Source: Stutzerimonas kunmingensis
GTDB lineage: Bacteria; Pseudomonadota; Gammaproteobacteria; Pseudomonadales; Pseudomonadaceae
Direction of reading: 5' to 3'
Assembly: GCF_014764705.1 (NCBI RefSeq)
Contig: NZ_JACXXG010000009.1
Span: 1 to 64,000 of the forward strand
DNA: 64,000 nt
The position numbers and the translations under genes are program-made. Below, piece by piece: positions 24,884-43,841 of the stretch (its first letter is position 1; each line of letters opens with the position of its first letter). The notes under the pieces are model-generated. The model was not told the DNA's origin, did no database searches, and was given only the letters and a program-made list of their open reading frames with translations.

Positions 24884-26161
24884 TTATGCCGCGCTTGACC
24901 CGTCGTAGAGCGGTTTCCGACGAGCGCCCGGTTTGGCCAGCAGCAGCTGTGCGGTGCCGATGGCGCGCTCGATGAAGCCGCCCTCGCAGTAGCACAGGTA
25001 GAACTCCCAGAGCCGGTAGAAATAGTCGTCGTAACCGTGGCGCTCCAGCTCGCCGCGGGCGCGGCGGAAGTTCTCGTGCCACAGGCGCAGGGTGCGCGCG
25101 TAGTGTTCGCCGAAGTCCTCCATGTGCAGCAGGTTCATGTCCGAGTCGCTGGTTACGACATTGAGCATGCGCTGCATGGAGGGCAGGGCACCGCCGGGGA
25201 AGATGTAGCGCTGGATGAAGTCGACGCTGCGGCGCGCCTGTTCGTAGCGCTGGTCGCGAATGGTGATGGCTTGCAGCAGCATCAGCCCGTCATTCTTGAG
25301 CAGCCGCGAGCACTGTCGGAAGTAAGTCGGCAGGAAGTCGTGGCCGACCGCTTCGATCATTTCGATGGACACCAGCTTGTCGAACTGACCGTCGAGATCG
25401 CGATAGTCCTTGAGCAGCAGGGTGATGCGGTCCTGCAGGCCCTGTTGTTCGATGCGCCGCTGGGTGTAGGCGAACTGTTCGCGCGACAGCGTGGTGGTGG
25501 TCACCCGGCAGCCACGGTGGATGGCGGCATAGAGCGCCATGCTGCCCCAACCGGTGCCGATCTCCAGCAGATGGTCCTCGGGCTGCAGGTCGAGCTTTTC
25601 GCAGATGCGTTCGAGCTTGTGCAGCTGGGCCTGTTCCAGATCCTGTTCGGGGCTGGTGAACATTGCCGCCGAGTACATCATGGTCGGGTCGAGAAACTGC
25701 TCGAAGAGCTCGTTGCCGAGGTCGTAATGGGCGGCGATGTTGCGCTGTGAGCCGCTGCGGGTGTTGCGGTTGAACCAGTGCAACGCCTTGATCACCGGCT
25801 GGCCGAACAGCGCCAGGCTGCCCCGCTCGATGTTGTCGAGCACGTCCATGTTGGCGACGAACAGGCGGATCACCGCGGTCAGGTCCGGGCTGTGCCAGTA
25901 GCCGTGAATGTAGGCTTCGCCGGCGCCGATCGAGCCGCGCGCGGCGATCAGGCCCCAGGCGGCACTGTCGGTTATATGAATTTCTGCCTTGAGCGGGCTC
26001 GCCAGATCGCCGAACTGCTGACAGACATCGCCGTGTTGCAGTCTCAGCAACCCGTGGCGCAGGTGTTCGAGCTGATTCAGCACGGTACGGCGCAGCAGGC
26101 TGCTGGCCAGTCCCATGCCCGCCAGCGGACGGACTTTGACGGTCAGGCTAGGGCTCTTCAT
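24884..26161 (-). CDS. cfa: Cyclopropane-fatty-acyl-phospholipid synthase family methyltransferase (UfaM-like)
   Basis: 425 residues of the CFA synthase family, which use S-adenosylmethionine to methylate or cyclopropanate unsaturated acyl chains in membrane lipids. Seen: [35 protein letters not shown] (SAM site), [29 protein letters not shown] and [11 protein letters not shown]. It is last in the run FAD oxidoreductase-DUF1365-CFA, the set found in light and singlet-oxygen regulons; in P. putida the light-induced member is called ufaM and is linked to furan fatty acids. A furan-type product is thus as likely as cyclopropane. Its ATG overlaps the end of the DUF1365 gene. Confidence 0.88.
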
Positions 26162-26963
26162 GGCGGGCTCCGGTGGGTTGCGGGACGGCCAGCCCGTACG
26201 CCTTGGTAGCGGGCTGATGGGTGAAGATCGGTGTGCGCTTGAGCAGCAGGCGCAGCGCCTGCCAGTAGATGGCGAGCAGGGTCTTGGCGGTCATCCAGGG
26301 GAAGCCGAGCAGGTAGCGGTGCACCGCGCCGCAAGTCAGCGTCTGGCGTTGCAGACCGAGGGTGGCGTCGAACAGCTTCTGCTCGCCCTGCCAATCCTCC
26401 ATGTGCACGCCGATGCGTCGTCCCGGCGGGTTGAAGCGCATGCGGTATTCCAGCTCGCCGGGCAGGAACGGCGAGACGTGGAAGGTCTTCGCCACGGTGC
26501 AGCGCAGGTTGCGATTGCCGGATGCCGGCAGCACGTAGTGATAACGCTCGCGCCAGGGCGTGTTGCTGACTTCGCAGAGCACCGCGGTCAGCTGTTCCTG
26601 TTCGTCGAAGCAATAGAAGAAGCTGACCGGGTTGAAGCACAGCCCCCAGCTGCGCGGCTGGGTCAGCAGGCGCACGGCACCGGTGACCGGCCGCCCGAGG
26701 GCTTCGCTGACCCGCTGGCGGACCGCGTCGGCCAGCGCGATGCCCTGGCGGGTGTATTCCGGCAGGTAGTCGCGCTCGCGGAAGGAAAATGCGGCGAAGC
26801 GGGCACGCCCACTCAGGGGCGAAAGCCCGAGCACGGCGTCCTGTTCGGCCAGGTCGAGGTACAGCAACCCCATGCGATAGCTGAACGCATGGGCCCGCGG
26901 CGCGAAGCGCCGATGCTGCACCCAGCCGCTGTACAGCGCGCTGTGCACGATGGCGCTGCTCAC
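26148..26963 (-). CDS. DUF1365 family protein
   Basis: 271 residues from GTG 26963, which overlaps the stop of the FAD oxidoreductase gene (GTGA). DUF1365 landmarks are HRRFAPRAHAFSYRMGLLYLD near the N-terminus, RSWGLCFNPVSFFYCFD, AVLCEVSNTPWRERYHYVL and KTFHVSPFLPGELEYRM. The molecular activity is not established. It is nearly always encoded between a FAD-dependent oxidoreductase and a CFA-type methyltransferase and so probably works with them on fatty acyl chains. Confidence 0.85.
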   Translation of the reverse strand: MSSAIVHSALYSGWVQHRRFAPRAHAFSYRMGLLYLDLAEQDAVLGLSPLSGRARFAAFSFRERDYLPEYTRQGIALADAVRQRVSEALGRPVTGAVRLLTQPRSWGLCFNPVSFFYCFDEQEQLTAVLCEVSNTPWRERYHYVLPASGNRNLRCTVAKTFHVSPFLPGELEYRMRFNPPGRRIGVHMEDWQGEQKLFDATLGLQRQTLTCGAVHRYLLGFPWMTAKTLLAIYWQALRLLLKRTPIFTHQPATKAYGLAVPQPTGARHEEP

Positions 26964-28207
26964 AGCGACTCTCCGAAGGCGGCGGCGACGCGCAACGCGC
27001 TGACCACACCGTCCTCGTGGAAGCCATTGCCCCAGTAGGCACCACAAAAGTAGCTGTGCCGGGCGCCGAGGAGTTCGTCGGCACGGGTCTGCGCGTCGAT
27101 GCCGGCCAGGCTGTACTGCGGGTGGGCGTAGGAGAAGCGCGCGAGGATCAGGTCCGGATCGATCGCTTCGCTCTGGTTGAGGCTGACGCAGAAGGTTTCC
27201 GGCGACTCGATGCCCTGCAGGATGTTCATGTTGTAGGTCACCGCGGCCTGCTGCGTGGTCGGCCCACCGAGGCGGTAGTTCCAGCTGGCCCAGGCGCGGC
27301 GACGCTTGGGCAGCAGGCGCGTATCGGTGTGCAGCACCACGTCGTTTGCGGCGTAGCCGATGGCTCCGAGGATCTCTCGTTCGACCCGGCTCGGTTCGGC
27401 CAGCAGGCTCAGCGCCTGGTCGCTGTGACAGGCGAAGATCACCTTGTCGAAACGCTCGGCACCGGCCGGGCTCTGGATCGTTACGCCGTGCTCATCGCGC
27501 AGCACCTCGAACACCGGGCAGTTGAGACGGATGTGCTGGCTGAAACCCCGCGTCAGTGGCGATACATAGGCGCTGGAGCCGCCTTCGACGACGTACCACT
27601 GTGGGCGATCGCTCACCGACAGCAGCCCGTGGTTCTTGAAGAAGCGGATGAAGAATTCCACCGGGAATTCCAGCATGTCGGCCAGCGACATCGACCAGAT
27701 CGCTGCGCCCATCGGCACGATGTAGTGATCGATAAAGCGCTGGCTGTAGCGGCCCAGCTCGAGATAGGTACCCAGGGTGACGTGGGCACCGAGGCGGCCG
27801 TGCTTGTAGTCGTCAAGCGCTTCGCGGTTGAAGCGCAGGATGTCGCGGATCATGCCCCAGAACGGTGGCGAGAACAGGTTGCTGCGCTGGGCGAACAACG
27901 TGTTGAGGTCGTGGCCGTTGTATTCCAGGTCGCTGAGCGGATCGCTCACCGAAAAGCTCATTTCGGTCGGCTTGTAGCGCACTCCGAGCTTGTCCAGCAA
28001 CTTGATGAAGTTGGGGTAGGTCCAGTCATTGAAGACGATGAAGCCGGTGTCCACCGCGTAGTCCCGGCCGTGCAGGCGGAAGTCCACGGTATGGGTGTGG
28101 CCGCCGATCCAGCTGGCCGATTCGAACACCGCGACCTGGTGCTGACGGGACAGCAGATGCGCACAGGTAAGTCCGGCAATACCGCTGCCGATGATGGCGA
28201 TTTTCAT
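26960..28207 (-). CDS. FAD-dependent oxidoreductase (amine oxidase/desaturase-like)
   Basis: 415 residues. The dinucleotide fold begins at the ATG (MKIAIIGSGIAGLTCAHLLS) with an acidic strand end at VAVFESASWIGGHTHTV. GFIVFNDWTYPNF, PMGAAIWSMSLADML and a C-terminal YWGNGFHEDGVVSALRVA complete the flavin-binding pattern. Relatives in light and singlet-oxygen regulons (UfaD type) are proposed to desaturate methylated fatty acids. AAGGATAA lies before ATG 28207, 2 bases after the SDR stop. A longer upstream frame exists but belongs to antisense-like sequence across the SDR gene. Confidence 0.86.
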   Translation of the reverse strand: MKIAIIGSGIAGLTCAHLLSRQHQVAVFESASWIGGHTHTVDFRLHGRDYAVDTGFIVFNDWTYPNFIKLLDKLGVRYKPTEMSFSVSDPLSDLEYNGHDLNTLFAQRSNLFSPPFWGMIRDILRFNREALDDYKHGRLGAHVTLGTYLELGRYSQRFIDHYIVPMGAAIWSMSLADMLEFPVEFFIRFFKNHGLLSVSDRPQWYVVEGGSSAYVSPLTRGFSQHIRLNCPVFEVLRDEHGVTIQSPAGAERFDKVIFACHSDQALSLLAEPSRVEREILGAIGYAANDVVLHTDTRLLPKRRRAWASWNYRLGGPTTQQAAVTYNMNILQGIESPETFCVSLNQSEAIDPDLILARFSYAHPQYSLAGIDAQTRADELLGARHSYFCGAYWGNGFHEDGVVSALRVAAAFGESL

Positions 28208-28209
28208 GG

Positions 28210-28977
28210 TTATCCTTCCTTGAGAGGCGTACGCGCCAGTCGCCGGCCGAGGGCGAATTGCAGGCGTGCGGGCAGCAGTGAGAGCAGGCGCAGCACAGAG
28301 ATGAACGGCGCCGGAAACGCGATGTGCAGCGGGCGGCGTTCCAGCCGTCGGGCGATCTGCCGTGCGGCCTTGTCCGCCGGCCAGCTCATGGGCATGGGAA
28401 AGTCGTTGCGACGGGTCAGCGGTGTGTCGACGAACCCCGGGCTGACGAGGGTGACGTCGATGCCTTCGTTGGCCAGATCCAGACGCAGCGATTCGAGCAG
28501 GTAGCGCAGCGCCGCCTTGGATGCGCCGTAAGCCCCGGCACGCGGCAGCGGCAGCCAGGTCACCGAGCTGCCGACGCCGACCAGATGCGGGCGCACCCCT
28601 TGGCGCAGCAGAGGTAGTGCCGCCTCGATGCAGTAGCCGACAGCGAGTACGTTGGCGCCCATCACGCGCTCCAGCAGCGCCGCGTCGAATCGGCCGGCGT
28701 CGATGTATTCGCAGGTGCCGGCGTTGAGGATCACGCTGTCCAACGCGCCCCATTGCGTCTGGATGGCGGCGCCGATGTCGCGCACCTGTTCGCTGTCGGT
28801 GAGATCGCCGGGCAACACCAGCACACGCCCCGGGTAGCGCCGGGCAAAGGCCTGCAGCGGCTCGGCGCGGCGTGCCGACAGCGCCAGGCAGTGCCCGTCG
28901 GCGAGCAGCTGACGCGCCAGCTCCAGGCCGATGCCACTGCTGGCGCCGGTCAGCCAGATACGTCGCGAGAGGTTCAC
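28210..28977 (-). CDS. Short-chain dehydrogenase/reductase
   Basis: 255 residues from GTG 28977, whose first bases overlap the preceding stop (GTGA). Classical SDR elements are present: IWLTGASSGIGLELARQLL (NAD(P) site TGxxxGxG), LPGDLTDSEQV, ILNAGTCEY (NAG), catalytic Ser in GVGSSVTWL, and Y-x-x-x-K in AYGASKAALRYLL followed by SPGFVDTPL. The substrate is not known. It is part of the photolyase operon. Confidence 0.88.
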   Translation of the reverse strand: MNLSRRIWLTGASSGIGLELARQLLADGHCLALSARRAEPLQAFARRYPGRVLVLPGDLTDSEQVRDIGAAIQTQWGALDSVILNAGTCEYIDAGRFDAALLERVMGANVLAVGYCIEAALPLLRQGVRPHLVGVGSSVTWLPLPRAGAYGASKAALRYLLESLRLDLANEGIDVTLVSPGFVDTPLTRRNDFPMPMSWPADKAARQIARRLERRPLHIAFPAPFISVLRLLSLLPARLQFALGRRLARTPLKEG

Positions 28978-29402
28978 GCGAGCCTCCGCTGCAGCCAGCG
29001 AATGGCCGCGCCGAGCAACGGCACATGCTGATAGAGCAGGGCACCGGCATCGAAGTAGTCGCGGTGGCGGACGACCTTGCCGGCGCCGTTCCAGCGCAGC
29101 AGCGAGCAGCCTTCGAGGCTGATCAGCTTGCCGCCGTTCAGCCGTGGATGTCGGTAACTCATGATCCAGCGCAGATAGCCCTGGCCGTCGCACGTCTCAT
29201 CGTGGCTGATGAACTCGAAATGCAGATGTTCGACGTTGGCATACAGCTCGCTGAAATAGCGCTCCAGCTCGACGAGTCCGCAGACCTCATGCAGCGGGTC
29301 GGTGAAGTGCACGTCGGCGCTGTAGAGGTCGCGCAGGCGGTCGAGATTGCTCGCGTCGAGGCGGGCGAACTCGCAGGCGAAAGACTGCAGGAAGCCGCTC
29401 AT
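28974..29402 (-). CDS. NTF2-like (SnoaL-type) nuclear transport factor 2 family protein
   Basis: 142 residues with the small cone fold of the NTF2/SnoaL superfamily: RLRDLYSADVHFTDPLHEVC, ELERYFSELYANVEHLHFEF and GKVVRHRDYFDAGALLYQH. Members act as small isomerases, hydrolases or binding proteins. Function here is unknown. It overlaps photolyase upstream (ATGA) and the SDR downstream (GTGA). Confidence 0.82.
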   Translation of the reverse strand: MSGFLQSFACEFARLDASNLDRLRDLYSADVHFTDPLHEVCGLVELERYFSELYANVEHLHFEFISHDETCDGQGYLRWIMSYRHPRLNGGKLISLEGCSLLRWNGAGKVVRHRDYFDAGALLYQHVPLLGAAIRWLQRRLA

Positions 29403-30829
29403 GCTTGCGCATCCGGCAGGTTGCGGAAGGCATCCAGAGCCCGCGCCCGGCTGGCGCCGAGGTCGACGATGGGGGCGGGGTACTCGGTTACGCCGAACAG
29501 GTTGCGGTGCGCCGACGGGTTATGCACGTCGCGCCTGCTCAGGTGCTGCAGCTCGGGAAGCCAGCGGCGCAGGAACTGCCCGTCCGGGTCGAAGCGTTGC
29601 GACTGGCTGATCGGATTGAACAGGCGGAAGTAGGGCACCGAGTCCGTGCCGGTGGACGCGCTCCATTGCCAGCCGCCATTGTTGGCGGCCAGGTCGCCGT
29701 CGATCAGGTGACGCATGAACCAGCGCTCGCCCTCACGCCAGTCGATCAGCAGGTTCTTGCTGAGGAACATGGCGACGACCATGCGCAGGCGGTTGTGCAT
29801 CCAGCCGGTTTCCTGCATCTGGCGCATGGCCGCATCGATGATCGGAAAGCCGGTGCGGCCCTGCTGCCATGCTTCCAGCTCGTACGGCGCACGCCGCCAG
29901 GGTAGTGCCTCGGTTTCCGGGCGGAAGGCGCGGTACATGGATACCCGCGGATAGCCGACCAGGATGTGCTTGTAGAACTCGCGCCAGAGCAGTTCGTTGA
30001 TCCAGGTGGTGACGCCGGTGCTGCCGCTGTCCAGCTCGCCCTGGTTGTAGCCAAGCGCCGCGTGCAGGCACTGGCGGATGGAAATGACACCGCCGGCGAG
30101 GTAGGCCGACAGCTGGCTGGTGCCGGGCTCGGCGGGCAGGTCGCGGCGCTGGTGGTATTCGTTCAGGTCGTCCTCGACGAACGCTGCCAGGCGCCGCTGG
30201 GCGAAGGCTTCGCCGGCTGGCCAGAGCGCGCGCAGATAGTCCGTGGGTCGCGGAAAACCGGTGACCGTCGTGGGTATCGGGTCACTGGTGATACCCAGCG
30301 GCGCCTGGGCCGCAGGCACCGGCTCGCAGGCTGGCAGCGATACGCTCAGGTGGGCGAGGCAGGCCTTGCGGAACTGGCTGAACACCTTGAAGTAGCTGCC
30401 CGACTGCGTCTGTACGCTGCCCGGAGTGAACAGCAGCTGGTCGAGATAGCCGCGCACGCTGATGCCGGCCGCTTCCAGATGCGTCGTAACTGCCTGATCG
30501 CGGCGCTGCTCGTTTACCCCGTACTCGTCGTTGTAATGCAGCCGCTGCACGCCCTGTTCGCGGCAGACCTTCAGCAGCGCGTCGGGTACCGCCTGCCAAT
30601 CATCGACCTCGCGAATCAGCAGCGGGACGTTGAGCGCGCCCAGCCGCGTCGACAGCTCGGCGAGGTTACGCAGCCAGAAGTCGACTTTGCACGGGGCATC
30701 GTCGTGGGCGAGCCATTGCCCCGGGGTCACCAGATACAGCGCCACGGTAGGGCCGCAAGCCATCGCAGCCGCGAGGGCGGTGTTGTCGCTTGTGCGCAGA
30801 TCGCTGCGCAGCCAGAGCAGCTGGGTCAT
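29399..30829 (-). CDS. phrB: Deoxyribodipyrimidine photolyase
   Basis: 476 residues of the class I CPD photolyase family, which uses blue light and FADH- to split pyrimidine dimers. The N-terminal antenna domain starts LLWLRSDLRTSDNTALAAAM. The FAD domain has GTSQLSAYLAGGVISIRQCL, WINELLWREFYKHILVGYP, AWQQGRTGFPIIDAAMRQM and GWMHNRLRMVVAMFLSKNLL. LAANNGGWQWSASTGTDSVP carries the Asn/Trp residues that define DNA photolyases. It overlaps the MerR gene stop by ATGA, so expression follows the light-responsive promoter upstream. Confidence 0.95.
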   Translation of the reverse strand: MTQLLWLRSDLRTSDNTALAAAMACGPTVALYLVTPGQWLAHDDAPCKVDFWLRNLAELSTRLGALNVPLLIREVDDWQAVPDALLKVCREQGVQRLHYNDEYGVNEQRRDQAVTTHLEAAGISVRGYLDQLLFTPGSVQTQSGSYFKVFSQFRKACLAHLSVSLPACEPVPAAQAPLGITSDPIPTTVTGFPRPTDYLRALWPAGEAFAQRRLAAFVEDDLNEYHQRRDLPAEPGTSQLSAYLAGGVISIRQCLHAALGYNQGELDSGSTGVTTWINELLWREFYKHILVGYPRVSMYRAFRPETEALPWRRAPYELEAWQQGRTGFPIIDAAMRQMQETGWMHNRLRMVVAMFLSKNLLIDWREGERWFMRHLIDGDLAANNGGWQWSASTGTDSVPYFRLFNPISQSQRFDPDGQFLRRWLPELQHLSRRDVHNPSAHRNLFGVTEYPAPIVDLGASRARALDAFRNLPDAQA

Positions 30830-31761
30830 GATGCACTCCCTTCGCTACCGGGCAGCAGGCCGGCGCCATGCAGCTGCCGCAGGGCGCCGAGGGGACCCTC
30901 AGCGAGCATCAGCCCGCGATGTCGGTGCAGCTCGGGTGCATGGATATGAACGGCCGGCCCGGCCACACAGAGCGGCGCGACGCTTTGCTCGATCAGACGC
31001 GGCAGGTCGCGTTGCAGGCAGTTGCCCGGCAGGCTGTTGCTCGCATAGAGCAACAGGGCGCGCGGCAGGATGCGCTCCATCGCCAGGTTCAGCTCGTTTA
31101 GCGGTACCGGCCACTCGACGACTTCAACTGGGCAGTCGGTGCTGGAGACGAGCCAGGCGGTCAACCACAGACCGGGTGCGAAGGACTCGTTATCCAGATT
31201 GGCGAGCAACAGCGGACGCCCGACCTGCTGCCGGTTGTTGAAATAGATGCGGGTCGCCAGTTTGCTGCGCAGCCAGGAATGAACCAGCGCCCGCTCCACC
31301 GCTGCACCGTACTGGCCCTGCCAGCGCTGTTCGAGTGCCTCGAGCAGCGGATGCAGCAGGTGCTGGCAGAGCGTGCGCGGCGGATACAGCGCCATGGCCC
31401 GGTTGAAGGCATCGTCCAGGCGTCGTTCGCTGAGGCGGTCGATGGCCTGCAGCAGCTCTTCGAGCAGCTCCGACCACTGGTTCTGCCTGGGCAGCTCCGG
31501 CGGCGTGGTGGTGTCCAGCAGCGGCTTGATCTGGCTGACCGAAACGCCGCGATTGAGCCAGGTGAGGATGTCGCGGATGCGCTGGATATGTGCTTCTTCG
31601 TACAGCCGATGACCCTTGGGCGTGCGCAGCGGGACGATCAGCCCGTAACGGCGCTCCCAGGCACGCAGGGTCACGGCGTTAACGCCGGTGATGCGCGCCA
31701 CTTCGCGGATCGGCAGGAGGCCGTCGGCCGTCAGCTGCGTCAGGTCCGTTGATTCATTCAT
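30826..31761 (-). CDS. MerR family regulator, class II LitR/PplR type
   Basis: 311 residues. The N-terminal MerR helix-turn-helix is LLPIREVARITGVNAVTLRA followed by WERRYGL. The C-terminal part is the cobalamin-binding-like fold of CarH/LitR proteins (helical bundle about 95-175, Rossmann-like about 180-300). The cobalamin signatures are degenerate: after Trp (RWQGQYGAAVERALVHSW) the E-H pair is E-R, and D-x-H-x-x-G is replaced by a His-free segment. This is typical of the B12-independent class II proteins that act with short LOV photoreceptors. It is second in the operon it probably controls, directly before photolyase. Confidence 0.85.
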   Translation of the reverse strand: MNESTDLTQLTADGLLPIREVARITGVNAVTLRAWERRYGLIVPLRTPKGHRLYEEAHIQRIRDILTWLNRGVSVSQIKPLLDTTTPPELPRQNQWSELLEELLQAIDRLSERRLDDAFNRAMALYPPRTLCQHLLHPLLEALEQRWQGQYGAAVERALVHSWLRSKLATRIYFNNRQQVGRPLLLANLDNESFAPGLWLTAWLVSSTDCPVEVVEWPVPLNELNLAMERILPRALLLYASNSLPGNCLQRDLPRLIEQSVAPLCVAGPAVHIHAPELHRHRGLMLAEGPLGALRQLHGAGLLPGSEGSAS

Positions 31762-31763
31762 GT

Positions 31764-32723
31764 TCAGATTCCGTTGCGCAGGCTGAGGGTTTCGGGATGC
31801 GGCTGCATGTAGGCCTGGCGTGCGACGTAATGATCGGGATGCCGACGGAAGTGGTGCTTGAGCAGGGTCAGCGGCACCACCAGCGGAATGACGCCGGCGC
31901 GATACTGATCGATGAGGTGGCGCATCTCGCGGCGGTCCTCTGCGCCAAGCGCGTCCTTGAGGTAACCGCTCAGATGCAGCAGCACGTTGCAGTGCGTACC
32001 GCGGGTGGCCGGCTTCTTCAGCGCCTGCATCAACTGACTGAAGTACTGCGGTGCGAACTCCTCCAGCGAGTGTTCGGCCAGTTGCGCGACCAGCCGGCCG
32101 AGCACCTTGTACTGCAGCGGGTTGCTCGCCATCAGCTGGTACTTGTAGCGCGAGTGGAAATCGACGATGGCCCGGCGGCTGAGGCCGGCCTGGCGCAGGC
32201 GCTGCCAGTCGGCATGGGCATAGACGCGGGTGAGGAAGTTTTCGCGCAGCACGGCATCGTTCAGTCGACCGTCCTCTTCGACCGGCAGATCCGGACAGGC
32301 CTGCATCAGCGCCTGGGCGAACACGCCGCTACCACCTCCGGGCTGGGTATGGCCGTTGGCGGCATAGACCTTGACCCGCTCCATGCCGCAGGACGGCGAT
32401 TTCTGCATAAGGATGTAGCCGTTGATGTCGTGCAACTGCTCGGCGATCTGCCGACCGTAGGCGGCGAGGGCTTCGGTGACATCCAGCTCGGGACGTACGG
32501 TGCCGACAGCCTTTGGTGCGTCGGTGTCGCCGACCAGGCGGATCGGCTCGCGAGGTGTGCCAAGGCCGATGGCAACCTCCGGGCACACCGGCACGAACTC
32601 GAAGTGTTGCGCCAGGGTTTCGCTGCACAGGCGCGATTCCTTGTGGCCACCGTTGAAACGCACCGGATTACCAAGCAGGCAGGCGCTGATTCCAATCTTG
32701 GGCGTGGGGAGCTTGGTGTGCAT
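31764..32723 (-). CDS. DUF523 and DUF1722 domain protein (YbgA-like)
   Basis: 319 residues. Residues about 8-150 are DUF523 (GISACLLGNPVRFNGGHKES, FVPVCPEVAIGLGTPREPIR, GYILMQKSPSCGMERV). Residues about 190-310 are DUF1722/YbgA (RAIVDFHSRYKYQLMASNP, YKVLGRLVAQ, YRAGVIPLVVPLTLLKHHFR). It is routinely encoded beside photolyase genes. Activity is unknown. ATG 32723 is preceded by GAGG. It is the first gene of the eight-gene minus-strand operon, directly under the TGTACA-rich promoter; an alternative upstream start would put coding sequence across that operator region. Confidence 0.88.
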   Translation of the reverse strand: MHTKLPTPKIGISACLLGNPVRFNGGHKESRLCSETLAQHFEFVPVCPEVAIGLGTPREPIRLVGDTDAPKAVGTVRPELDVTEALAAYGRQIAEQLHDINGYILMQKSPSCGMERVKVYAANGHTQPGGGSGVFAQALMQACPDLPVEEDGRLNDAVLRENFLTRVYAHADWQRLRQAGLSRRAIVDFHSRYKYQLMASNPLQYKVLGRLVAQLAEHSLEEFAPQYFSQLMQALKKPATRGTHCNVLLHLSGYLKDALGAEDRREMRHLIDQYRAGVIPLVVPLTLLKHHFRRHPDHYVARQAYMQPHPETLSLRNGI

Positions 32724-32739
32724 GATGGCGACCTCGTCT

Positions 32740-32835
32740 TGTACAAGTTGGGTTTCTGTACAACTTGTGGCCATCATAATCGTGGTGTTGTACAAGTCAA
32801 TACAGAATGTACAACTAAGTGCATAATCCTGTACA
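32740..32835 (-). promoter_or_regulatory. Photolyase operon promoter with five TGTACA half-sites
   Basis: TGTACA occurs at 32740, 32757, 32789, 32808 and 32830. On the minus strand a good sigma-70 promoter is present: TTGACT (32800-32795), 16-base spacer, TATGAT (32778-32773). The 32789 site sits inside the spacer against the -35. The half-site spacings (11 and 13 bases) are one off the published P. putida PplR1 repeat T(G/A)TACA-N12-TGTA(C/T)A. Light-relieved repression by the MerR proteins is the likely mode. Confidence 0.75.
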
Positions 32836-32970
32836 AATGTCGTCAACGAGTGGCTTTGGATAGTTGTCGCCGCGTACGGAGGGGTTTTTTGGTGGCTGAG
32901 CGATCTACAGCGCTTGTCGGCCAGCCTGATGTGCGCCAGTGGCTCAGCCGAAGCGGTGGCGTGAAAATGC

Positions 32971-32995
32971 TGTACGGTTCATGTGCCTGTGTATA
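32971..32995 (+). promoter_or_regulatory. Candidate PplR-type repeat before the epimerase-hemH unit
   Basis: TGTACG-N13-TGTATA, 61 bases before the epimerase ATG. The second half fits TGTA(C/T)A exactly, the first at 5 of 6. A weak -10 (TATGCT, 33000-33005) follows immediately. Confidence 0.45.
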
Positions 32996-33055
32996 GGTGT
33001 ATGCTTTCAAGCAAGTCGTCAAACCCGCGCAATGGCTGCGCGCCAGGAGCTCACC

Positions 33056-33958
33056 ATGAACATCTTGTTGACGGGCGGTACCGGGCTGATAGGCCGCACC
33101 TTGTGTCGGCGCTGGCTGGCGGACGGGCATCGGCTGTGGGTATGGAGCCGCACGCCGCAACGCGTTGCCGCGCTGTGTGGTGCCGAGGTGCAGGGTGTGG
33201 GCAGCTTGCAGCAGCTGGATGCCGTGGCGCTGGACGCGGTGGTCAATCTGGCCGGCGCCCCCATCGCCGATCGGCCATGGACCAAGTCGCGCAAGGTGTT
33301 GCTATGGGACAGTCGGGTCAAGCTCACCGAACAGCTGGTCGAGTGGCTGGGCCGACGCGAGCAGAAACCGGCGCTGCTGATTTCTGGTTCCGCCGTGGGT
33401 TGGTACGGCGACGGCGGTGAGCACCGCCTGACCGAAGCCGATCAGCCGGTCTCCACCGATTTTGCCAGCCAGCTGTGCAATGCCTGGGAAGAGCGCGCGA
33501 TGGAGGCGACAGTGCTGGGAATGCGTGTGGTGCTGGTGCGTACCGGGCTGGTGCTGGCGCGTGACGGCGGCTTTCTCCAGCGGTTGCTGCCGCCATTCAG
33601 GCTTGGTTTGGGCGGGCGCATCGGCGATGGTCGGCAATGGATGCCGTGGATTCATATCGAAGACCAAATCGCCCTGATTGATTTTCTTCTGCGCCAGCCG
33701 GCGGCAAGCGGGCCTTACAATGCCTGTGCGCCGGCCCCGGTGCGCAACGTCGAGTTCACGCGCAGCCTTGGCCGCTGCCTGCATCGCCCGACGGTATTGC
33801 CAGTCCCGGCAGCGGTGCTCAAGCCCCTGCTCGGCGAGTTGGCCGGACTGCTGCTCGGGGGGCAACATGCGTTGCCGCAGAGGGCCGAGGCGGAAGGTTT
33901 CCGCTTCCGTTTCAACGATCTGGATTCAGCCCTGGCCGACCTATTGACGCCTCCCTGA
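33056..33958 (+). CDS. TIGR01777 family NAD-dependent epimerase-like protein
   Basis: 300 residues of the YfcH/SDR39U1 family. It begins with the nucleotide-binding [20 protein letters not shown] and has [61 protein letters not shown] and PYNACAP. The usual SDR Tyr region is WYGD. Substrate unknown. CCAGGAG precedes ATG 33056. It is followed after 80 bases by hemH, an order kept in pseudomonads next to the photolyase cluster. Confidence 0.88.
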
Positions 33959-34038
33959 AGGTGGCGCCCTGTGTGAAAATAGCGCGCCCCCCGCTTGGGG
34001 TACGGCGCAACCTAAAAAACAGTAGTCAGGAAAGTTGC

Positions 34039-35064
34039 ATGACAGAGCAGGCGTTGTTGTTGGTTAATCTGGGTTCGCCGGCCTCCACGGAAGTCGCTGA
34101 TGTACGCCGCTACCTCAACCAGTTTCTGATGGATCCGTACGTTATTGATCTGCCGTGGCCGTTGCGGCGCCTGCTGGTCTCGCTGATCCTGATCAAGCGC
34201 CCCGAGCAATCGGCGCATGCGTACGCCTCGATCTGGTGGCCGGAAGGTTCGCCGCTGGTGGTGCTGAGCCGCCGTCTGCACGAGGCGGTACGTCCGCACT
34301 GGACGCAAGGCCCGGTGGAGCTGGCGATGCGCTACGGCGAGCCCTCCATTGAGACCACGCTGACGCGTCTGGCCGGGCAGGGCATCACCCAGGTCACCCT
34401 GGCGCCGCTTTATCCGCAGTTCGCCGACAGCACCACGACGACGGTCATTCAGGAAGCGCGCCGGGTCATCCGCGAGCGCGGACTGTCTCTGCAGTTGTCG
34501 ATCCTGCAGCCGTTCTACGACCAGCCGGAGTACCTCGACGCGCTGGTAGCCAGTGCCAGGTCGCATCTGCAACAGGATTTCGATCATCTGCTGCTGAGTT
34601 TCCACGGGCTGCCCGAGCGTCACCTGCACAAGACCGATCCAACCGGCGCGCACTGCCTGAAGGGCGATGATTGCTGCCAGCGTGTCGAGGGCGAGGTACT
34701 CGCCAGCTGCTACCGCGCGCAGTGCATGCGCACCGCCGCCGGCTTCGCGGCGCAGGCCGGGTTGCGTGACGATCAGTGGTCGGTGTCTTTCCAGTCGCGC
34801 CTCGGCCGCGCCAAGTGGATCGAGCCCTACACCGAGACGCGTCTCGACGAGCTGGCGCAGCAGGGCGTGAAGAAGCTGCTGGTGATGTGCCCGGCCTTCG
34901 TCGCCGACTGCATCGAAACCCTCGAGGAGATCGGCGATCGCGGTCGTGAGCAGTTCATCGAGGCGGGTGGCGAGGAACTGGTGCTGGTGCCCTGTCTGAA
35001 TACCCACGAGGATTGGGTAAAGGCGCTGGTGACACTCTGCGGTCGCGCGCCTCTGGCGCTCTGA
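34039..35064 (+). CDS. hemH: Ferrochelatase
   Basis: 341 residues. It inserts ferrous iron into protoporphyrin IX, the last step of heme b synthesis. Seen: [66 protein letters not shown] (active-site His), [17 protein letters not shown] and [15 protein letters not shown] (catalytic Glu). GTCAGGAAAG precedes ATG 34039. Its product removes the photosensitiser protoporphyrin IX, which gives the link to a light regulon a plausible sense. Confidence 0.95.
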
Positions 35065-35075
35065 CCGCAGGCTCG

Positions 35076-35102
35076 GGGACGCATCGCGCGGTGATGCGTC
35101 CC
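35076..35102. terminator. Hairpin between convergent hemH and GGDEF-EAL genes
   Basis: GGGACGCATC (35076-35085) pairs with GATGCGTCCC (35093-35102) over 10 bp with a 7-base loop. There is no U-run. It sits between two gene ends 41 bases apart. Confidence 0.5.
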
Positions 35103-35105
35103 ACG

Positions 35106-37763
35106 TCAGGCTGTCACGCCGTCGTCCGCCTCGGTGCTGCGAACCAGCTCCTCGAACGCATCTGCCGATAGCGGTCTACCGAACAGATAACCCTGATAGC
35201 GATGGCAGCCATTGGCGAGCAGCATCGCCCGTTGTGGCTCGCTTTCGACGCCTTCGGCGATGACCTCCAGGCCCAGACCGGTCGCAAGGGCGCAGATGGC
35301 CCGCACGATGGTCAGGCTGCTGCTGTCGTCCGGTAGGCGGCGAATAAAGGTCTGGTCGATCTTCAGCTGATCCAGCGGCAGCTGCTGGAGATAGCTCATC
35401 GAGGAATAGCCGGTACCGAAGTCGTCGATGGCGAAACGGATGCCGTGCTGCTTGAGCCGCGTCATGCGGGCGATCGCTTCGGGCATGTTGTCCAGCAGCA
35501 GCGTTTCGGTCAGCTCCAACTTCAGTCGGGCCGGATCGGCACCACTCCCTTCCAGCAGCTCGAGCACCCCCTCGACGAAATTGTCCTGGTACAGCAGGTG
35601 TGCACTGAGGTTTACCGAGAGGCTGAGGTGGGCGAATTCCGGCGTTTCGGCCCAGCGCGCCAGTTGTGCGCAGGCCTGCGCCAGCACCTGTTGATCGAGG
35701 GTGTGGATCAGACCGGCGTGTTCGGCCTGGGCGATGAATGCCGCTGGAGTGAGTAGACCGCGCAGCGGGTGCTGCCAGCGCACCAGCGCCTCGGCGCCAA
35801 TGATGCCTTCGGTCTGCTCCAGCTGCGGCTGGAAATTGAGTATGAATTCGCCGTTCTTCAAGCCCAGGCGAATATCTTCCTCCAGACGCAACCGTTCCTG
35901 CACGGCCAGCTGCATGCGTGGATCGAAGAAGCGCAGGGCGTTCTTGCCGGAAATCTTCGCTTCGTACATCGACATGTCTGCGCGCTTCATCAGCTCGTCG
36001 CTGCTGCTGGCTTCGGCACCGAACAGCACCACGCCGATACTGGCGCTGCTGTACAGCGCGAGATCGGCCAGGCGATACGGCCGGTCCAGTGAGTTCAGCA
36101 GCTTCATGCCGATGTGCTCGGCCTGGCCCGCTGCGCGTAGCGGGTCATCGCCGAGGTTCTCCAGCATCACCACGAACTCGTCGCCACCCAGGCGCGCCAC
36201 CGTGTCGCTGGCGCGCACCTCGGCGTGCAGACGTTCGGCGGCGATGCGCAGCACCTGGTCGCCGGTCTGGTGCCCGTGCAGGTCGTTGATGTTCTTGAAG
36301 TTGTCCAGGTCGATGAACATCAGCGCGCCCAGCTGATTGCCGCGGCGGCTGGCGGCCATGGCCTGGTGCAGGCGGTCGAGCAGCAGCCGGCGGTTGGGCA
36401 GACCGGTCAGCGGATCGTAGAACGCCAGATTATGAATCCGCTCTTCGGCCGCCTTACGATCGGTGATGTCGGTAAAGGCGGCGACATAGTGAGTCACTTC
36501 TCCGAGCGCGTTGCGCACCGCGCTGACGGTCAGCCATTCGGGAAAGATCTCGCCACTCTTGCGCCGGTTCCAGATTTCGCCTTCCCATACGCCGGTGGTT
36601 TCGATGCTCGACCACATGGCGCGATAGAACTCCGGGCCGTGCTTGCCGGACGCGAGCAGAGCGGTGGTCTGACCGATGGCTTCGGCGGGGCTGTAGCCGC
36701 TGATGCGGGTGAAAGCCCGGTTGACCCGCAGGATGCGGCTCTGCGCGTCGGTAATCAGCATGCCCTGTTGCGATTCGAAGGCGATGGAGGCGATCCTGCG
36801 CTCCAGCTCGCTGTTCACCCTCTCCGTGATATCGCGGCTCAGCCAGACCACCGCGCGCTTTTGCCCTGGTGGTTGCTCCAGCGGTAATGCACGACCTTCG
36901 AACATCCGTATGCCAACCCGTGTCGGTAAGCTGTATTCGATTAGCTGCGGCGTATCGCTGTTCAGCGTCTGTCGGATGTAGTCGAGGTAGCGCTGTTGGT
37001 CCGCTTCCGGCATAGCGTCCTGCACGGTTTTGCCGCGCAGGCGGGTGGCTTCGTCATACAACAGATTGCGTTCTGAGCAGATCACGTCCAGGCAGCGACC
37101 GTCCTCGTCGACCACCAGTAGCGGGTCAGGTATAGCTTGGCCTATGGCGCGCAGCCGGGCTTCGCTGAAGCGCAGCGCCTGCTCGATCTTGTCGCGCTCC
37201 AGCAGATCCTTGAGCAGGACGCCGAGGGTCGCGGTGGCGATGGGCAGCGCCAACAGCGCTGGCAAGGCAGCTTCCCGTACGGCGGCGGCGCCGAGCCCGT
37301 TGGGCAGCATCAGTGCAACCAGCGCCAGCGCGCCAAGGTGCAGCAACACGCCGAACGTGAGCAATTGCCAGAAGCCGATGCTGACCAGACGCTTGCGATA
37401 TGCACAGCCATAGGCGAGCCCCAGAGCGATCGGCAACACCACGTTCGCCAGCCCCGGTACCACACCGGGCCCGCCCAGCCAGAGGCGGTAGGCGCCAGCC
37501 AGGGTGCCGGCGATCGTGGCCACCAGCGGCCCGCCGAACAACCCGGCCATGCTCAGCACCACGGTGCGCGCATCGAGGATGATCCCGGTGTGGCCGACGC
37601 TGGTGATCAGCATGCCGATGATGCAGGCGCTGCCGAACCAGAGTCCGGCGAGCAATTGAGCGGAGAGCTGACCGCTCCGGTTCCAGCTGCGGGTGGTAAA
37701 GGCCAGCAGCCAGCACAACGCGAGCAGCATGACCGCGTTCTGTACGACGGCATTGAGAGTCAA
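35106..37763 (-). CDS. 5TM-PAS-PAS-GGDEF-EAL cyclic-di-GMP protein
   Basis: 885 residues. A LytS-type 5-helix membrane sensor (about 1-185) is followed by two PAS domains (about 195-315 and 325-440). The GGDEF domain has the intact active site VARLGGDEFVVMLENLG. The EAL domain has GAEALVRWQHP, LKLELTETLLLDN, FAIDDFGTGYSSMSYL and VIAEGVES, so both synthesis and hydrolysis of c-di-GMP are possible. No strict RxxD inhibitory site was noticed before GGDEF. The gene lies alone between hemH and the LOV gene; whether it is light linked is unknown. Confidence 0.92.
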   Translation of the reverse strand: MTLNAVVQNAVMLLALCWLLAFTTRSWNRSGQLSAQLLAGLWFGSACIIGMLITSVGHTGIILDARTVVLSMAGLFGGPLVATIAGTLAGAYRLWLGGPGVVPGLANVVLPIALGLAYGCAYRKRLVSIGFWQLLTFGVLLHLGALALVALMLPNGLGAAAVREAALPALLALPIATATLGVLLKDLLERDKIEQALRFSEARLRAIGQAIPDPLLVVDEDGRCLDVICSERNLLYDEATRLRGKTVQDAMPEADQQRYLDYIRQTLNSDTPQLIEYSLPTRVGIRMFEGRALPLEQPPGQKRAVVWLSRDITERVNSELERRIASIAFESQQGMLITDAQSRILRVNRAFTRISGYSPAEAIGQTTALLASGKHGPEFYRAMWSSIETTGVWEGEIWNRRKSGEIFPEWLTVSAVRNALGEVTHYVAAFTDITDRKAAEERIHNLAFYDPLTGLPNRRLLLDRLHQAMAASRRGNQLGALMFIDLDNFKNINDLHGHQTGDQVLRIAAERLHAEVRASDTVARLGGDEFVVMLENLGDDPLRAAGQAEHIGMKLLNSLDRPYRLADLALYSSASIGVVLFGAEASSSDELMKRADMSMYEAKISGKNALRFFDPRMQLAVQERLRLEEDIRLGLKNGEFILNFQPQLEQTEGIIGAEALVRWQHPLRGLLTPAAFIAQAEHAGLIHTLDQQVLAQACAQLARWAETPEFAHLSLSVNLSAHLLYQDNFVEGVLELLEGSGADPARLKLELTETLLLDNMPEAIARMTRLKQHGIRFAIDDFGTGYSSMSYLQQLPLDQLKIDQTFIRRLPDDSSSLTIVRAICALATGLGLEVIAEGVESEPQRAMLLANGCHRYQGYLFGRPLSADAFEELVRSTEADDGVTA

Positions 37764-37940
37764 GACAGAATCCTAGGGCGCAACCGCCCACTGCAGGATG
37801 GTGAAATGGCGATTTGCCAGTATCCCATATCCACCGCTACCGAGTAACGGCACTTAGGTAGGGTTGTCCGGGTACTTGAGGGCGCAGCGCTGCCGCATCG
37901 TTGAGCCAACGGCCCGCCGGACGCGGGCCGGGCGGCGTGC

Positions 37941-38381
37941 TCAGTTCTGCGCGAGCTTTGCCTTCAGTTCGCGAATCTCGGCTTCCAGCGCTTCGACGCG
38001 TTGCAAGGCGTCGACCTCGGCGGTGACGTTCTTCTGGATGCCGATGAAGTAGGTCAGCTGATCGGCCTCGTTGAACACCGGCGTAATGGAAAGCTCGTTC
38101 CAGAACGGCGTGCCGTCCTTGCGGTAGTTGCGGATGATCTGGCGGCACGGCTGGTTGTTCTTCACCGCCTCGCGAATGGCCTGCAGGGCCGGCTGGTCGC
38201 GGTCCTCGCCCTGCAGGAAGCGGCAGTCGCGGTAGAGGATGTCGTCCACCGCATAGCCGGTCAGCCGCTCGAACGCCGGGTTGGCGTAGATCAGGATGTT
38301 GTCATCGCCTTCCTGTTCGGCGACCACGATTCCGTCGTTGGAGGCTTCGATAACCAGTTGCAACAGCTTGGCATTGATCAT
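37941..38381 (-). CDS. Short LOV blue-light photoreceptor (SB-LOV type)
   Basis: 146 residues: one LOV/PAS core and a C-terminal helix, with no output domain. The flavin-binding motif is RDCRFLQGEDRDQ with the photo-adduct Cys at residue 53. NPAFERLTGY and NYRKDGTPFWNELSITPVFN are also strict LOV signatures. It closely matches the P. putida SB1/SB2-LOV proteins as I remember them, which are needed for light induction together with PplR-type MerR proteins. The C-terminal EALEAEIRELKAKL helix is a likely dimer or partner contact. AGGATG lies before the ATG. No TGTACA site is seen before it. Confidence 0.92.
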   Translation of the reverse strand: MINAKLLQLVIEASNDGIVVAEQEGDDNILIYANPAFERLTGYAVDDILYRDCRFLQGEDRDQPALQAIREAVKNNQPCRQIIRNYRKDGTPFWNELSITPVFNEADQLTYFIGIQKNVTAEVDALQRVEALEAEIRELKAKLAQN

Positions 38382-38618
38382 GTCACGACATCCTGAAAGG
38401 GCATGCCGCGCATTCTAGAACAACTTGGCCCGCTCGGTGCCCTGCAGGTGCCATCAGTGGCCTGTTTAGCAAGTTCAGTTGGTCAATTTCGGCGCCTATG
38501 GCCCCGATACTGCGTTGCTGCTCCTCACCATAGCCCGCTATGACTCGTCGCAGCGCCTTGTCTCGGAAGCATGGTCATCCGAACGTGCCTCAACCAACTC
38601 ACCGCACAGGCCACCCGC

Positions 38619-39146
38619 TCATTCGTTGCGTTTGCGGAAGAACAGGGTGACCTGTCCCACCTCGACGCCAAACTTGCTCATGAACGAACGGTTGGCCAGG
38701 GTGTTCTCGTCGATCAGGTACATCCAGTCGTCCAGGTGTACGTCGTAAACCTTGTCATCCACCGGCAGGCTGAGCACGTAGCGCCAGCGCAGGGCATTGC
38801 CGGCCACTTCGCCAACGGCCTCGCCGACCACGTCTGCAGCCGTGCCGCGCCAGTGCCCCGGGCGTTCCTCGGTCAGCGTCCAGACGCGTTGCTGGGTAGT
38901 GCCGTCGCTGTAGCGGAAGTGTTCGTCGAGGATCAGCTTGTCGCCATCGAGGCTGCCTTCGATCTCGACATGAAAGCGCTTGACGACCTCGCCGGAGCGC
39001 TTCTGGAACATGCCCCAGGCATCCACCGTGCCGACGAAATACTTGCGCAGATCAAGCTGCGGCTCCTCGTCTCGGTAATGCTCGACATCGACGGCGGTGC
39101 AGCTGAGCAGCAGCAGGCAGCAAGCCAGGATCAGTACCTTTTTCAT
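38619..39146 (-). CDS. DUF3833 family lipoprotein
   Basis: 175 residues with a lipoprotein signal ending LLLLSC (Cys16). Family segments are LDLRKYFVGTVDAWGMFQKR, GLDGDKL-type ILDEHFRYSDG, RVWTL, GNALRWRYVLSLPVDDKVYD and FDDWMYLIDE-like text. Function is not established; the fold is thought to be lipocalin-like. It is the last gene of the folE operon. Its ATG overlaps the stop of the MFS gene. Confidence 0.85.
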   Translation of the reverse strand: MKKVLILACCLLLLSCTAVDVEHYRDEEPQLDLRKYFVGTVDAWGMFQKRSGEVVKRFHVEIEGSLDGDKLILDEHFRYSDGTTQQRVWTLTEERPGHWRGTAADVVGEAVGEVAGNALRWRYVLSLPVDDKVYDVHLDDWMYLIDENTLANRSFMSKFGVEVGQVTLFFRKRNE

Positions 39147-40381
39147 GATTTCGTTTCTCCGCAGGGCAGGGAAGTGAGCAGCCGCGCCGCCAGTAGCTTC
39201 AGCAGGCAGGGCAGGCCGGCGTAGACCAGCGCAAGGTTCCAGCCGGCCGCGGTGCCCGGTTGGTAGTCGCTCAACGCCAGCAATGGCAAAGCCAGACCGG
39301 CGAGTGCCAGCGCCAGCTTGGCGAGAAAGCTCCACAAGCCGAAGTAGGCGGCGGTGGAATCACGGTCCTCGACTGGGATGATGTCGGCCAGCAGCGCTGG
39401 TGGCAGAGCCAGATCGGCTCCGAGGGCAAGGCCGGACATCATGCAGACGCCGGCATAGGCCCAGGCCGAGCCCGGTTCCAGCAGCACCGCCCAGATAAAA
39501 GCGGCGCAGGCCGTGAGCATACCGATCCGCCAGCTGCGTCGTTTGCCGATGCGATCGGCCAGACGGGTCCAGAGCGGCAGGCCCAATGCGCCGCTGATGA
39601 AGTACAGCGCCAGGAACAGCCCGGTCAGTCGCGCCAGTTGCAGGCGGTCGGCGATGAAGAACAGCGCCAGGGTGGCCGGAATCGCCACGGCCACGGCATT
39701 GATGAAGTAGACGCCCGCCAGCCGCTGGAACGCACGATTGCGCAGCGGCAGTCGCCAGCTGCTGGCTTGCGTGCGCACGGCGCGATGGGGGCGTGGGGCG
39801 CCGAACAACAAGGTCGCCGTGCCGAGAAACAGCAGCACGGCGAAGGTGGCGGCGAAGGTTGCCAGTGCCGCGGCCATGCCATATTGCGTCGCCAGCACGG
39901 TAGGCAGCACGCTGGCGAGCACCACGCCGAACAGCCCGGCACCTTCGCGCCAGGCAGCGACTCGGGTGCGGGTATCCGGCTGGTCGGAGAGGCGCGCGCC
40001 CCAGGCCAGATAGGTAATGTTGATCAGGCTGTGCAAGGTATAGGTGAGCGCCAGCAACGCGCCGAGCCAAGCGGCTAGGCCGAAGCTGCCGAAGTTGCCG
40101 GGTGGGATCAGCAGTGCCGCCATCGCCAGGCTCAGCAACACAGCCGCGCCGCCGAGCAGAATGGTCCAGCCGCGTGGTGAGCGACGATCGATAAGGCGGC
40201 CAAGCCAGGGGTCTTGCACGGTGTCCAGCAGACGGGCGAGAAACAGCACGGCGCCGGTCAGCGTCAGACCGAGGCCGAGATCGGCCGCATAGAAATTCGG
40301 TACCAGCACATAGATCGGCAGCATGGCCATCGCCAGCGGCAGGCCGAGCATTCCATAGGCTGCCAGCGCCGGGCTTTTCAT
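39143..40381 (-). CDS. MFS transporter (sugar:cation symporter-like)
   Basis: 412 residues with about 12 membrane helices. FLARLLDTVQDPWLGRLIDR and SLINITYLAWGARLSDQPDT resemble the GPH/MelB branch of the major facilitator superfamily. LTRLADRIGKRRSW lies in the second half. Substrate unknown. Members of this subgroup recur next to DUF3833 and chalcone-isomerase-like genes in light-responsive clusters. The gene overlaps both neighbours by 4 bases. Confidence 0.85.
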   Translation of the reverse strand: MKSPALAAYGMLGLPLAMAMLPIYVLVPNFYAADLGLGLTLTGAVLFLARLLDTVQDPWLGRLIDRRSPRGWTILLGGAAVLLSLAMAALLIPPGNFGSFGLAAWLGALLALTYTLHSLINITYLAWGARLSDQPDTRTRVAAWREGAGLFGVVLASVLPTVLATQYGMAAALATFAATFAVLLFLGTATLLFGAPRPHRAVRTQASSWRLPLRNRAFQRLAGVYFINAVAVAIPATLALFFIADRLQLARLTGLFLALYFISGALGLPLWTRLADRIGKRRSWRIGMLTACAAFIWAVLLEPGSAWAYAGVCMMSGLALGADLALPPALLADIIPVEDRDSTAAYFGLWSFLAKLALALAGLALPLLALSDYQPGTAAGWNLALVYAGLPCLLKLLAARLLTSLPCGETKS

Positions 40382-40896: not shown

Positions 40897-40906
40897 GACA
40901 TCGTGC

Positions 40907-41835: not shown

Positions 41836-41899
41836 GACGGTTCCTTTCGTAAGGCGGGCGCTGTTGTGGATGCACAGCGGGTACTGGATGCAATAAAGC

Positions 41900-42031
41900 T
41901 ATACGAATATTCGTTGTTGTACAGATAAATGTACAGGAATATTCTACTGAAACGAAAGCTGCTTCGCTGGAACCCGCAGTTTGGCAGGCAGAGAGCAATT
42001 GCCTGGCTATGCGGACAAGCGAATCTGTACA
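41900..42031. promoter_or_regulatory. PplR-type operator cluster in the folE divergent region
   Basis: TATACG (41900) is 12 bases from TGTACA (41918), the exact spacing of T(G/A)TACA-N12-TGTA(C/T)A. A further TGTACA lies at 41930. GAATATTC flanks the pair at 41905-41912 and 41937-41944. On the other side TATGCG (42008) is 12 bases from TGTACA (42026), 12 bases before the DUF6482-like ATG. Both divergent genes thus have a candidate site. Confidence 0.65.
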
Positions 42032-42042
42032 GGTATCCGAAT

Positions 42043-42800: not shown

Positions 42801-42818
42801 TTCATCGCACCTCGGGTT

Positions 42819-42864
42819 TGTACAACGTTTGTAGAGGGTATGCTGCGAAACGCTGGGTTACAAT
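42819..42864. promoter_or_regulatory. TGTACA site and promoter before second MerR gene
   Basis: TGTACA (42819-42824) and TGTAGA (42830-42835) lie between the divergent DCC and MerR genes. TACAAT at 42859-42864 is a good -10 for the MerR gene; no strong -35 is seen at 17 bases. Autoregulation is likely. Confidence 0.5.
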
Positions 42865-42893
42865 CTCGGCATTCTCTTCCAGCGAGCCGCCCC

Positions 42894-43841
42894 ATGACCG
42901 ATTCTTCCGGCGCTTCGAACCTGGCCTCGAATGCGTTCGAGCAGCAGGAGCTATTTCCTATCCGCGAGGTTTCCCGCCTTACTGGTGTCAACCCGGTGAC
43001 TTTGCGCGCGTGGGAACGCCGCTACGGACTGATCCGGCCGACACGCACGGACAGTGGCCATCGGCTGTACTCGATGGCAGATGTGGAAGCGGTGCGCAGC
43101 ATCCTTTCCTGGACCGAGCGTGGCGTGGCGGTAAGCAAGGTCGGCAGCATTCTGGCGCGCAGCGCGGCAACCCGCGAAGCTGAGGAGCCCGCAATAGTTG
43201 TCAGTGGGGAGTGGGGTGAGTGGCAAGCGCAGCTGCGCGAAGCCGTGAATAGCTTCGACGAGGTGCGCCTGGAGCAGCTTTATGGCCAGGTCTTCTCCAC
43301 CTATCCGCTGGCCGTGGTTTTTCAGGATGTTCTGTTGCCGGTTTGGCAGGAGCTTCTGCTGCGTCAGGATGAGTTCGGCGGCACCAGCGAGTGGCTCTTT
43401 CTCGATGCCTTTCTCCGTGCCCGGGTGCTCCAGCGGTTGCAGCTGGCTCGCATGCCGGCTGGCGAGCGCGTACTGCTCGCCGCGATGCCAGGGCAGTGCC
43501 GCGAACTGGAGCTGCTGGTAGCAGGGCTGATGTTGAGCGGCGACAGCCTGGCCGTCAGCGTGCTGCCGATCGGGCAGCCGCTGGAGGAGCTCGCGCTGGT
43601 CTGCGACAAGATGAAACCGCAGGGCCTGGTCCTGTTCTCCAACGTTCCCCACGGCGAGGCGCAACTACGCCAGCTCAACAAGCTATCGCTAGGGCTCGAT
43701 TGCCCGCTGGCGGTGGCCGGTGAGGCCGCCGAACTGGGTCGTGAAGCGCTGGCGGGTACGCCGATCGCCTGCCTGGGTAGTTCCGGCAAGCTGATGCAGC
43801 GCCGTTTGCGGCAATTTCTCGCCGGCCAGCTGGATACTTGA
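42894..43841 (+). CDS. MerR family regulator, class II LitR/PplR type (second copy)
   Basis: 315 residues. DNA-binding part: LFPIREVSRLTGVNPVTLRA followed by WERRYGLIRPTRTDSGHRLY. The C-terminal region has the CarH/LitR-like bundle and Rossmann-like fold (VLLAAMPGQCRELELLVAGL, SLAVSVLPIGQPLEEL). The cobalamin ligand segment D-x-H-x-x-G has no His here, as in the first copy. ATG 42894 gives the conserved N-terminus. It differs clearly from the 30826-31761 protein, so it is an older paralogue and not a recent duplication. Confidence 0.85.
   Translation: MTDSSGASNLASNAFEQQELFPIREVSRLTGVNPVTLRAWERRYGLIRPTRTDSGHRLYSMADVEAVRSILSWTERGVAVSKVGSILARSAATREAEEPAIVVSGEWGEWQAQLREAVNSFDEVRLEQLYGQVFSTYPLAVVFQDVLLPVWQELLLRQDEFGGTSEWLFLDAFLRARVLQRLQLARMPAGERVLLAAMPGQCRELELLVAGLMLSGDSLAVSVLPIGQPLEELALVCDKMKPQGLVLFSNVPHGEAQLRQLNKLSLGLDCPLAVAGEAAELGREALAGTPIACLGSSGKLMQRRLRQFLAGQLDT

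Follow-up and report, generated by a model that had tools for sequence, protein, structure and literature searches.

Five copies of the hexamer TGTACA lie across one sigma-70 promoter in the 64-kb stretch of DNA analysed here (the window). Judged from sequence, they are probably where a repressor of a known, blue-light-controlled type binds, over an operon for DNA repair and protection against light. The array is very probably a class II LitR operator, at which LitR would repress in the dark at two paired sites, a LOV protein would release the repression, and a fifth half-site would provide an extra contact. The mechanism is known; the shifted spacing of the half-sites, together with the fifth one, is a lineage-specific variant of the operator.

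The TGTACA array and its promoter

The array and the promoter comprise the following elements:

32830..32835 (-), H0, orphan fifth TGTACA half-site, at roughly -64 to -69 relative to the predicted start
32808..32813 (-), H1, outer half of Site 1, upstream of the -35 element
32795..32800 (-), -35 element TTGACT, abutting H2; same hexamer as in P. mendocina P6650
32789..32794 (-), H2, inner half of Site 1, within the -35/-10 spacer, N13 from H1
32773..32778 (-), -10 element TATGAT, N16 from the -35 element
32757..32762 (-), H3, inner half of Site 2, in the leader
32740..32745 (-), H4, outer half of Site 2, separated from H3 by N11

Exact copies of TGTACA start at 32740, 32757, 32789, 32808 and 32830, which places five of them within 96 bases of the window (32740-32835), with 11, 26, 13 and 16 bases between successive copies. 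The initial annotation had described these five copies, their spacings and a TTGACT-N16-TATGAT promoter between them, all of which are exact, the promoter being on the minus strand. It had also called the count far above chance in GC-rich DNA; shuffling bears out the excess, but the array itself (32736-32845) has only 39% G+C. When the local 140 bp was dinucleotide-shuffled 20,000 times, TGTACA occurred 0.24 times on average and three times at most, and five copies were never reached. The whole 64-kb window holds 19 copies against 3.9 expected, a number reached in none of 100 shuffles. Across the 4.86 Mb genome the strict dyad TRTACA-N10..14-TGTAYA occurs at two sites, both of them in the array, while the reversed control pattern occurs at none.

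Transcription is predicted to start near 32766, 7 bases downstream of the -10 box. One TGTACA dyad lies at the -35 element and one in the leader, as in operators of the P6650/PplR type, and the N12 spacing of the published consensus, which covers two species, is replaced here by N13 (Site 1) and N11 (Site 2). At 10.5 bp per turn the half-site positions 0, 22, 41, 73 and 90 correspond to 0, 34, 326, 343 and 206 degrees, so that four of the five lie near one face of the helix. Because the last is off that face and spacings vary within the family, helical phasing was set aside as evidence and no inference was drawn from it.

The operon, its probable regulators and a short LOV gene

The locus has its named close relatives in Stutzerimonas (S. 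chloritidismutans, S. kunmingensis and others). The genes concerned are:

24884..29402 (-), remainder of the rudS operon: SnoaL-like, SDR, FAD oxidoreductase, DUF1365 and ufaM-like CMAS methyltransferase
29399..30829 (-), phrB photolyase
30826..31761 (-), class II LitR (PplR1/PmlR1-like), MerR HTH plus B12-binding_2
31764..32723 (-), rudS (TudS-DUF1722, tRNA 4-thiouridine desulfidase type), first gene of the operon, Pfam PF04463 and PF08349
33056-33958 (+), yfcH-type oxidoreductase, divergent from the rudS operon
33961 to 35064 (+), hemH ferrochelatase ORF, start uncertain
37941..38381 (-), short LOV photoreceptor with a cysteine at position 53 of its translation, candidate anti-repressor
41278-41835 (-), folE
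42840..43841 (+), second LitR-like MerR gene (PplR2/PmlR2-like), whose true start may be downstream

The eight-gene operon proposed earlier is supported by the ORF coordinates, some of them with chosen starts: the genes are tightly packed, overlapping or separated by a 2-base gap. RudS has been described in PMC11417400, the P. putida protein being PP_0741. The first LitR gene, the LOV gene and the second LitR gene all fall within one stretch of about 20 kb (24884-43841).

The two LitR-like proteins are 34% identical over 284 positions. The PplR1-like protein matches PF02607 (B12-binding_2) at E 1.6e-5 and so has the domain of a class II LitR; the PplR2-like protein is weaker, matching PF02607 only at E 0.089. 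Among 16 solved structures matched by the PplR1-like protein none bears the name of a class II LitR; CarH and a 'probable transcriptional regulator' head the list. The best PDB sequence matches of the short LOV protein are sensory box proteins (7a6p, E 2e-67; 3sw1, E 3e-54), and the genome contains a short LOV with cysteine 53, as P6650/PplR-type systems do. A lone TGTACA at 42819-42824 lies between the second LitR gene and a gene at 42354-42800 (-) that has no NCBIfam match; it is near a possible -10 element, TATGCT, and has no partner with fewer than two mismatches.

The four-half-site layout across relatives

Matches to rudS were found in 270 of 298 genomes. From 150 places listed, 100 promoters were taken from the first 102 (excluding the window and genome G291), so distant genera are under-sampled. 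Four half-sites were then fitted to 101 promoters, these 100 and that of the window, a promoter failing if it had more than three mismatches over the four sites or its combined score reached 9; failures are absent from the spacing counts. The layout fits 84 of the 101 and fails in 17. The distances between half-sites are 18/32/18 in 22 promoters, 19/32/17 in 22, 19/32/18 in 10, 18/33/18 in 10, 18/31/18 in eight, with other combinations in the remaining 12. The 22 with 19/32/17, which is also the spacing of the window, are all from Stutzerimonas. Since spacing varies by lineage among the 84, we treat N12 as typical and not as defining. Three promoters of the same genus (L101, L103 and L105, with one LitR match) have intact sites and an inner distance of 34, unique among the fitted promoters.

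The 84 fitted promoters represent 80 distinct sequences. With kinship among these 80 ignored, the variant TATACA occurs in 26 left halves and no right half, and its reverse complement TGTATA in 14 right halves and no left half. Given this polarity, each pair is best read as an inverted repeat, in line with the published PplR1 consensus and unlike the direct repeats of CarH. The promoter pattern as a whole matched 87 of 298 genomes, against one of 298 for a reversed-pattern control.

These data bear on the reading that the array is a CarH-type (class I) operator, on which AdoB12-bound tetramers would occupy tandem 11-bp direct repeats and light would act through B12. The regulators do belong to the same superfamily (there is a match to the PDB CarH structure 5c8d, and the NCBIfam CarH model scores far below its cut-off), and the CarH motif TnnACA is contained in TGTACA (PMC9304148). 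In the fitted promoters, however, the distance within a pair of half-sites is 17-20 bp, and in the window it is 17 and 19 bp, rather than 11 bp; the polarity of the variants is typical of inverted repeats, for which reason we rejected a direct-repeat layout; and neither MerR protein matches a B12-binding domain at a threshold of E 5, a search in which the HMMER filters drop most weak matches. We regard a CarH-type operator as very improbable and retain the class II LitR operator.

Operator integrity and regulator genes

Operators and regulator genes were compared in 48 of 56 Stutzerimonas genomes, the other eight having no rudS match or lying outside the listed places; five of those eight have no LitR match among the matches listed. 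A PplR1-like gene was called at a best E below 1e-60, and LitR counts per genome are lower bounds, with up to seven candidates scored in each. Where a PplR1-like gene is present, 34 of 37 genomes keep each of the four sites to within one mismatch; where it is lacking, 4 of 11 do (Fisher p 0.0004 for the 48 genomes, kinship ignored). The exceptions are three genomes with the gene and a degenerate H1 (G031, G160, G176) and the four that lack the gene and stay intact. In G243, which alone among the 48 has no LitR match at all, the four-site operator is missing too. G064, G129 and G229 each have just one LitR match, a weaker one that is apparently the second LitR; these three have lost H1 and kept H2 to H4, in keeping with the binding of PmlR2 to a P6650-type promoter.

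The fifth half-site

H0 is an unpaired upstream half-site specific to one Stutzerimonas clade. Exact TGTACA occurs 18-26 bases upstream of H1 in 14 of the 18 distinct 19/32/17 promoters, the others having TATACA (two) or CGTATA, with two mismatches (two, in G195 and G215). At the same distance it occurs in none of the 62 other distinct promoters, 20 of which are from the same genus, and at 27-90 bases upstream in two of these 62. Exact H0 is present in S. chloritidismutans AW-1, S. kunmingensis, S. xanthomarina PX_067 and S. frequens, and is missing in S. stutzeri 24a13. Literature search listings returned nothing on the operator of this clade.

Whether H0 acts at all can be weighed from its conservation. 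It might be a functionless relic or a chance half-site, with H1 to H4 alone of importance: it has no partner at N10-14 with fewer than two mismatches, it would fall outside the P. mendocina footprint if positions are scaled by the predicted start, and it is degenerate in 2 of the 18 distinct clade promoters. The hexamer is nevertheless better conserved than its flanks (mean consensus frequency 0.95 versus 0.56, a difference inflated by the choice of the best match within a 9-base range), and it is kept, exactly or as TATACA, while its distance from H1 drifts from 21 to 24 across the clade. A relic has a substantial, though less than even, chance of being the right reading. We favour a functional H0, most likely as an extra contact for the same repressor oligomer in this clade that would tighten or extend repression; this step is less secure than the proposed action of Sites 1 and 2.

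Further dyads at yfcH-hemH and folE

Two further candidate operators lie in the window:

32971..32995 (+), second dyad, TGTACG-N13-TGTATA, upstream of the divergent yfcH-hemH
41900..41935 (+), third dyad, TATACG-N12-TGTACA-N6-TGTACA, upstream of folE

A dyad with at most one mismatch is found in the roughly 130 bp upstream of yfcH at 13 of 16 loci, eight of them nearly identical, and in none of 480 mononucleotide shuffles; the count excludes 30 loci without yfcH (L035-L064). The three loci lacking the dyad belong to P. fluorescens HK44 and two P. oryzihabitans. Among 46 genus promoters (the 48 minus L117 and L126), 29 have such a dyad in the upstream portion of the retrieved sequence, versus 0.2% of shuffles. 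Its position suggests light control of ferrochelatase, which may thus belong to the blue-light regulon of Stutzerimonas. The words ferrochelatase and hemH are absent from the main text of PMC9758184, and literature search listings gave nothing on ferrochelatase under LitR.

This dyad, conserved and about 135 bp past H0, also allows that H0 serves the divergent yfcH-hemH unit, or a loop joining both operators, instead of the rudS promoter. Promoters of the same genus outside the clade, such as L091 and L097, have a dyad in the upstream region without H0, and we hold this role for H0 to be unlikely; a contact at the rudS promoter remains our preferred reading. A broader proposal, which we offer tentatively as the less probable case, is that the rudS-yfcH region of the S. 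stutzeri-type clade is a two-headed blue-light switch, with LitR on the five half-sites and on the yfcH-hemH dyad and one LOV inducing both. If so, a single LOV receptor would induce DNA repair, removal of s4U from tRNA, and ferrochelatase, the last of which would clear photosensitising protoporphyrin, and the paired one-base shifts (19/32/17, with the total still 68) together with H0 would mark a changed oligomer geometry.

Counting the window, 18 of 56 genus genomes carry the folE pattern with no more than one mismatch, at 9.0-10.1 kb from rudS on the same contig. With two mismatches allowed it is found in 28 of 56, but the reversed pattern then matches many as well, and we therefore confine the evidence to the 18. 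In G180 and G245 the folE operator has four half-sites 18/12/18 apart; at 41900-41953 the window is without the last one. Genome-wide, dyads with at most one mismatch occur at 11 places for N12 (one in the window) versus 5 for the reversed pattern, and at 3 places for N13 (two in the window) versus 4, and on these counts we do not claim a wide regulon.

Proposed mechanism

In the dark, LitR-type MerR repressors (PplR1/PmlR1-like and PplR2/PmlR2-like) would occupy two inverted repeats. Of these, Site 1 (H1-H2) spans the -35 element and extends into the spacer and Site 2 (H3-H4) is in the leader, so that the two, when occupied, would jointly exclude RNA polymerase. Under blue light the short LOV protein would bind the repressor and clear the promoter for transcription of rudS, litR, phrB and the genes behind them. 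Repression and release have been shown for PmlR2 in P. mendocina, and we infer by likeness of sequence that they extend to the window promoter.

The initial annotation had taken the array for MerR repressor sites over a sigma-70 promoter, under light control. Comparison with P6650 favours repressor sites; the five are not equivalent, however, since four make up the two recurring dyads of the family, footprinted in P. mendocina, and the fifth is the orphan of one clade. Light control likewise gains support from P. mendocina, where the signal passes through a short LOV that the annotation had left out. The series of promoters with 18/32/18, 19/32/18 and 19/32/17, with or without the fifth half-site, offers a natural way to ask how class II LitR reads DNA.

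Comparison with known systems

The closest counterpart is P6650 of P. mendocina, described in PMC9758184 as TTGACTN16TATGAT with a start mapped by 5'-RACE and CAGE and with Sites 1 and 2 each TGTACA-N12-TGTACA. According to that paper, PmlR2, a class II LitR of MerR type, leaves a footprint of +32 to -45 and +37 to -54 on the two strands, and its binding is abolished when both TGTACA of Site 2 are replaced. In vitro it represses P6650, and blue-lit PmSB-LOV binds PmlR2 and relieves the repression; a PmlR2/LOV/DNA complex is visible in the light by gel shift, contrary to BIAcore data. The same source reports folE of P. mendocina to be 1.6- to 3.3-fold up in light.

P6650 and the window promoter share both hexamers, -35 and -10, as well as the N16 between them, and both carry two TGTACA dyads, at the -35 element and in the leader. 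Both organisms have LitR-type repressors and a short LOV with Cys53, and the P. mendocina pmlR1 region, as listed in PMC9758184, resembles the window operon in gene content. PME6650, the first gene in P. mendocina, is presumably the rudS counterpart, an assignment helped by P. putida, where RudS PP_0741 adjoins PplR1 PP_0740. The window differs in having N13/N11 instead of N12/N12 and an additional upstream half-site, and its LitR and LOV clusters lie within about 20 kb, whereas those of P. mendocina are at separate loci.

P. putida PplR1 operators, with the consensus T(G/A)TACA-N12-TGTA(C/T)A as quoted in PMC9758184, are dyad-symmetric like those of the window and differ from them in their N12 spacing. 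The light response of PplR is B12-independent according to earlier work of the same authors cited there, and PMC9758184 states that class II LitR does not require B12, in contrast to PMC11417400, which calls it adenosyl-B12-dependent.

CarH of Thermus and Bacillus belongs to the LitR/CarH superfamily and has an operator overlapping a promoter element, as in the window, but uses 11-bp tandem direct repeats and AdoB12 as its light sensor (PMC9304148). The nearest working parallel outside Pseudomonas is, by analogy, CarA/CarS of Myxococcus, in which, as described in PMC9304148, two dimers of the MerR repressor CarA bind cooperatively and are countered by CarS. A B12-independent repressor, an inverted-repeat operator and release by an anti-repressor are what we propose here too; CarA/CarS differs in that CarS, and no LOV photoreceptor, is the anti-repressor and in that the targets are carotenoid genes.
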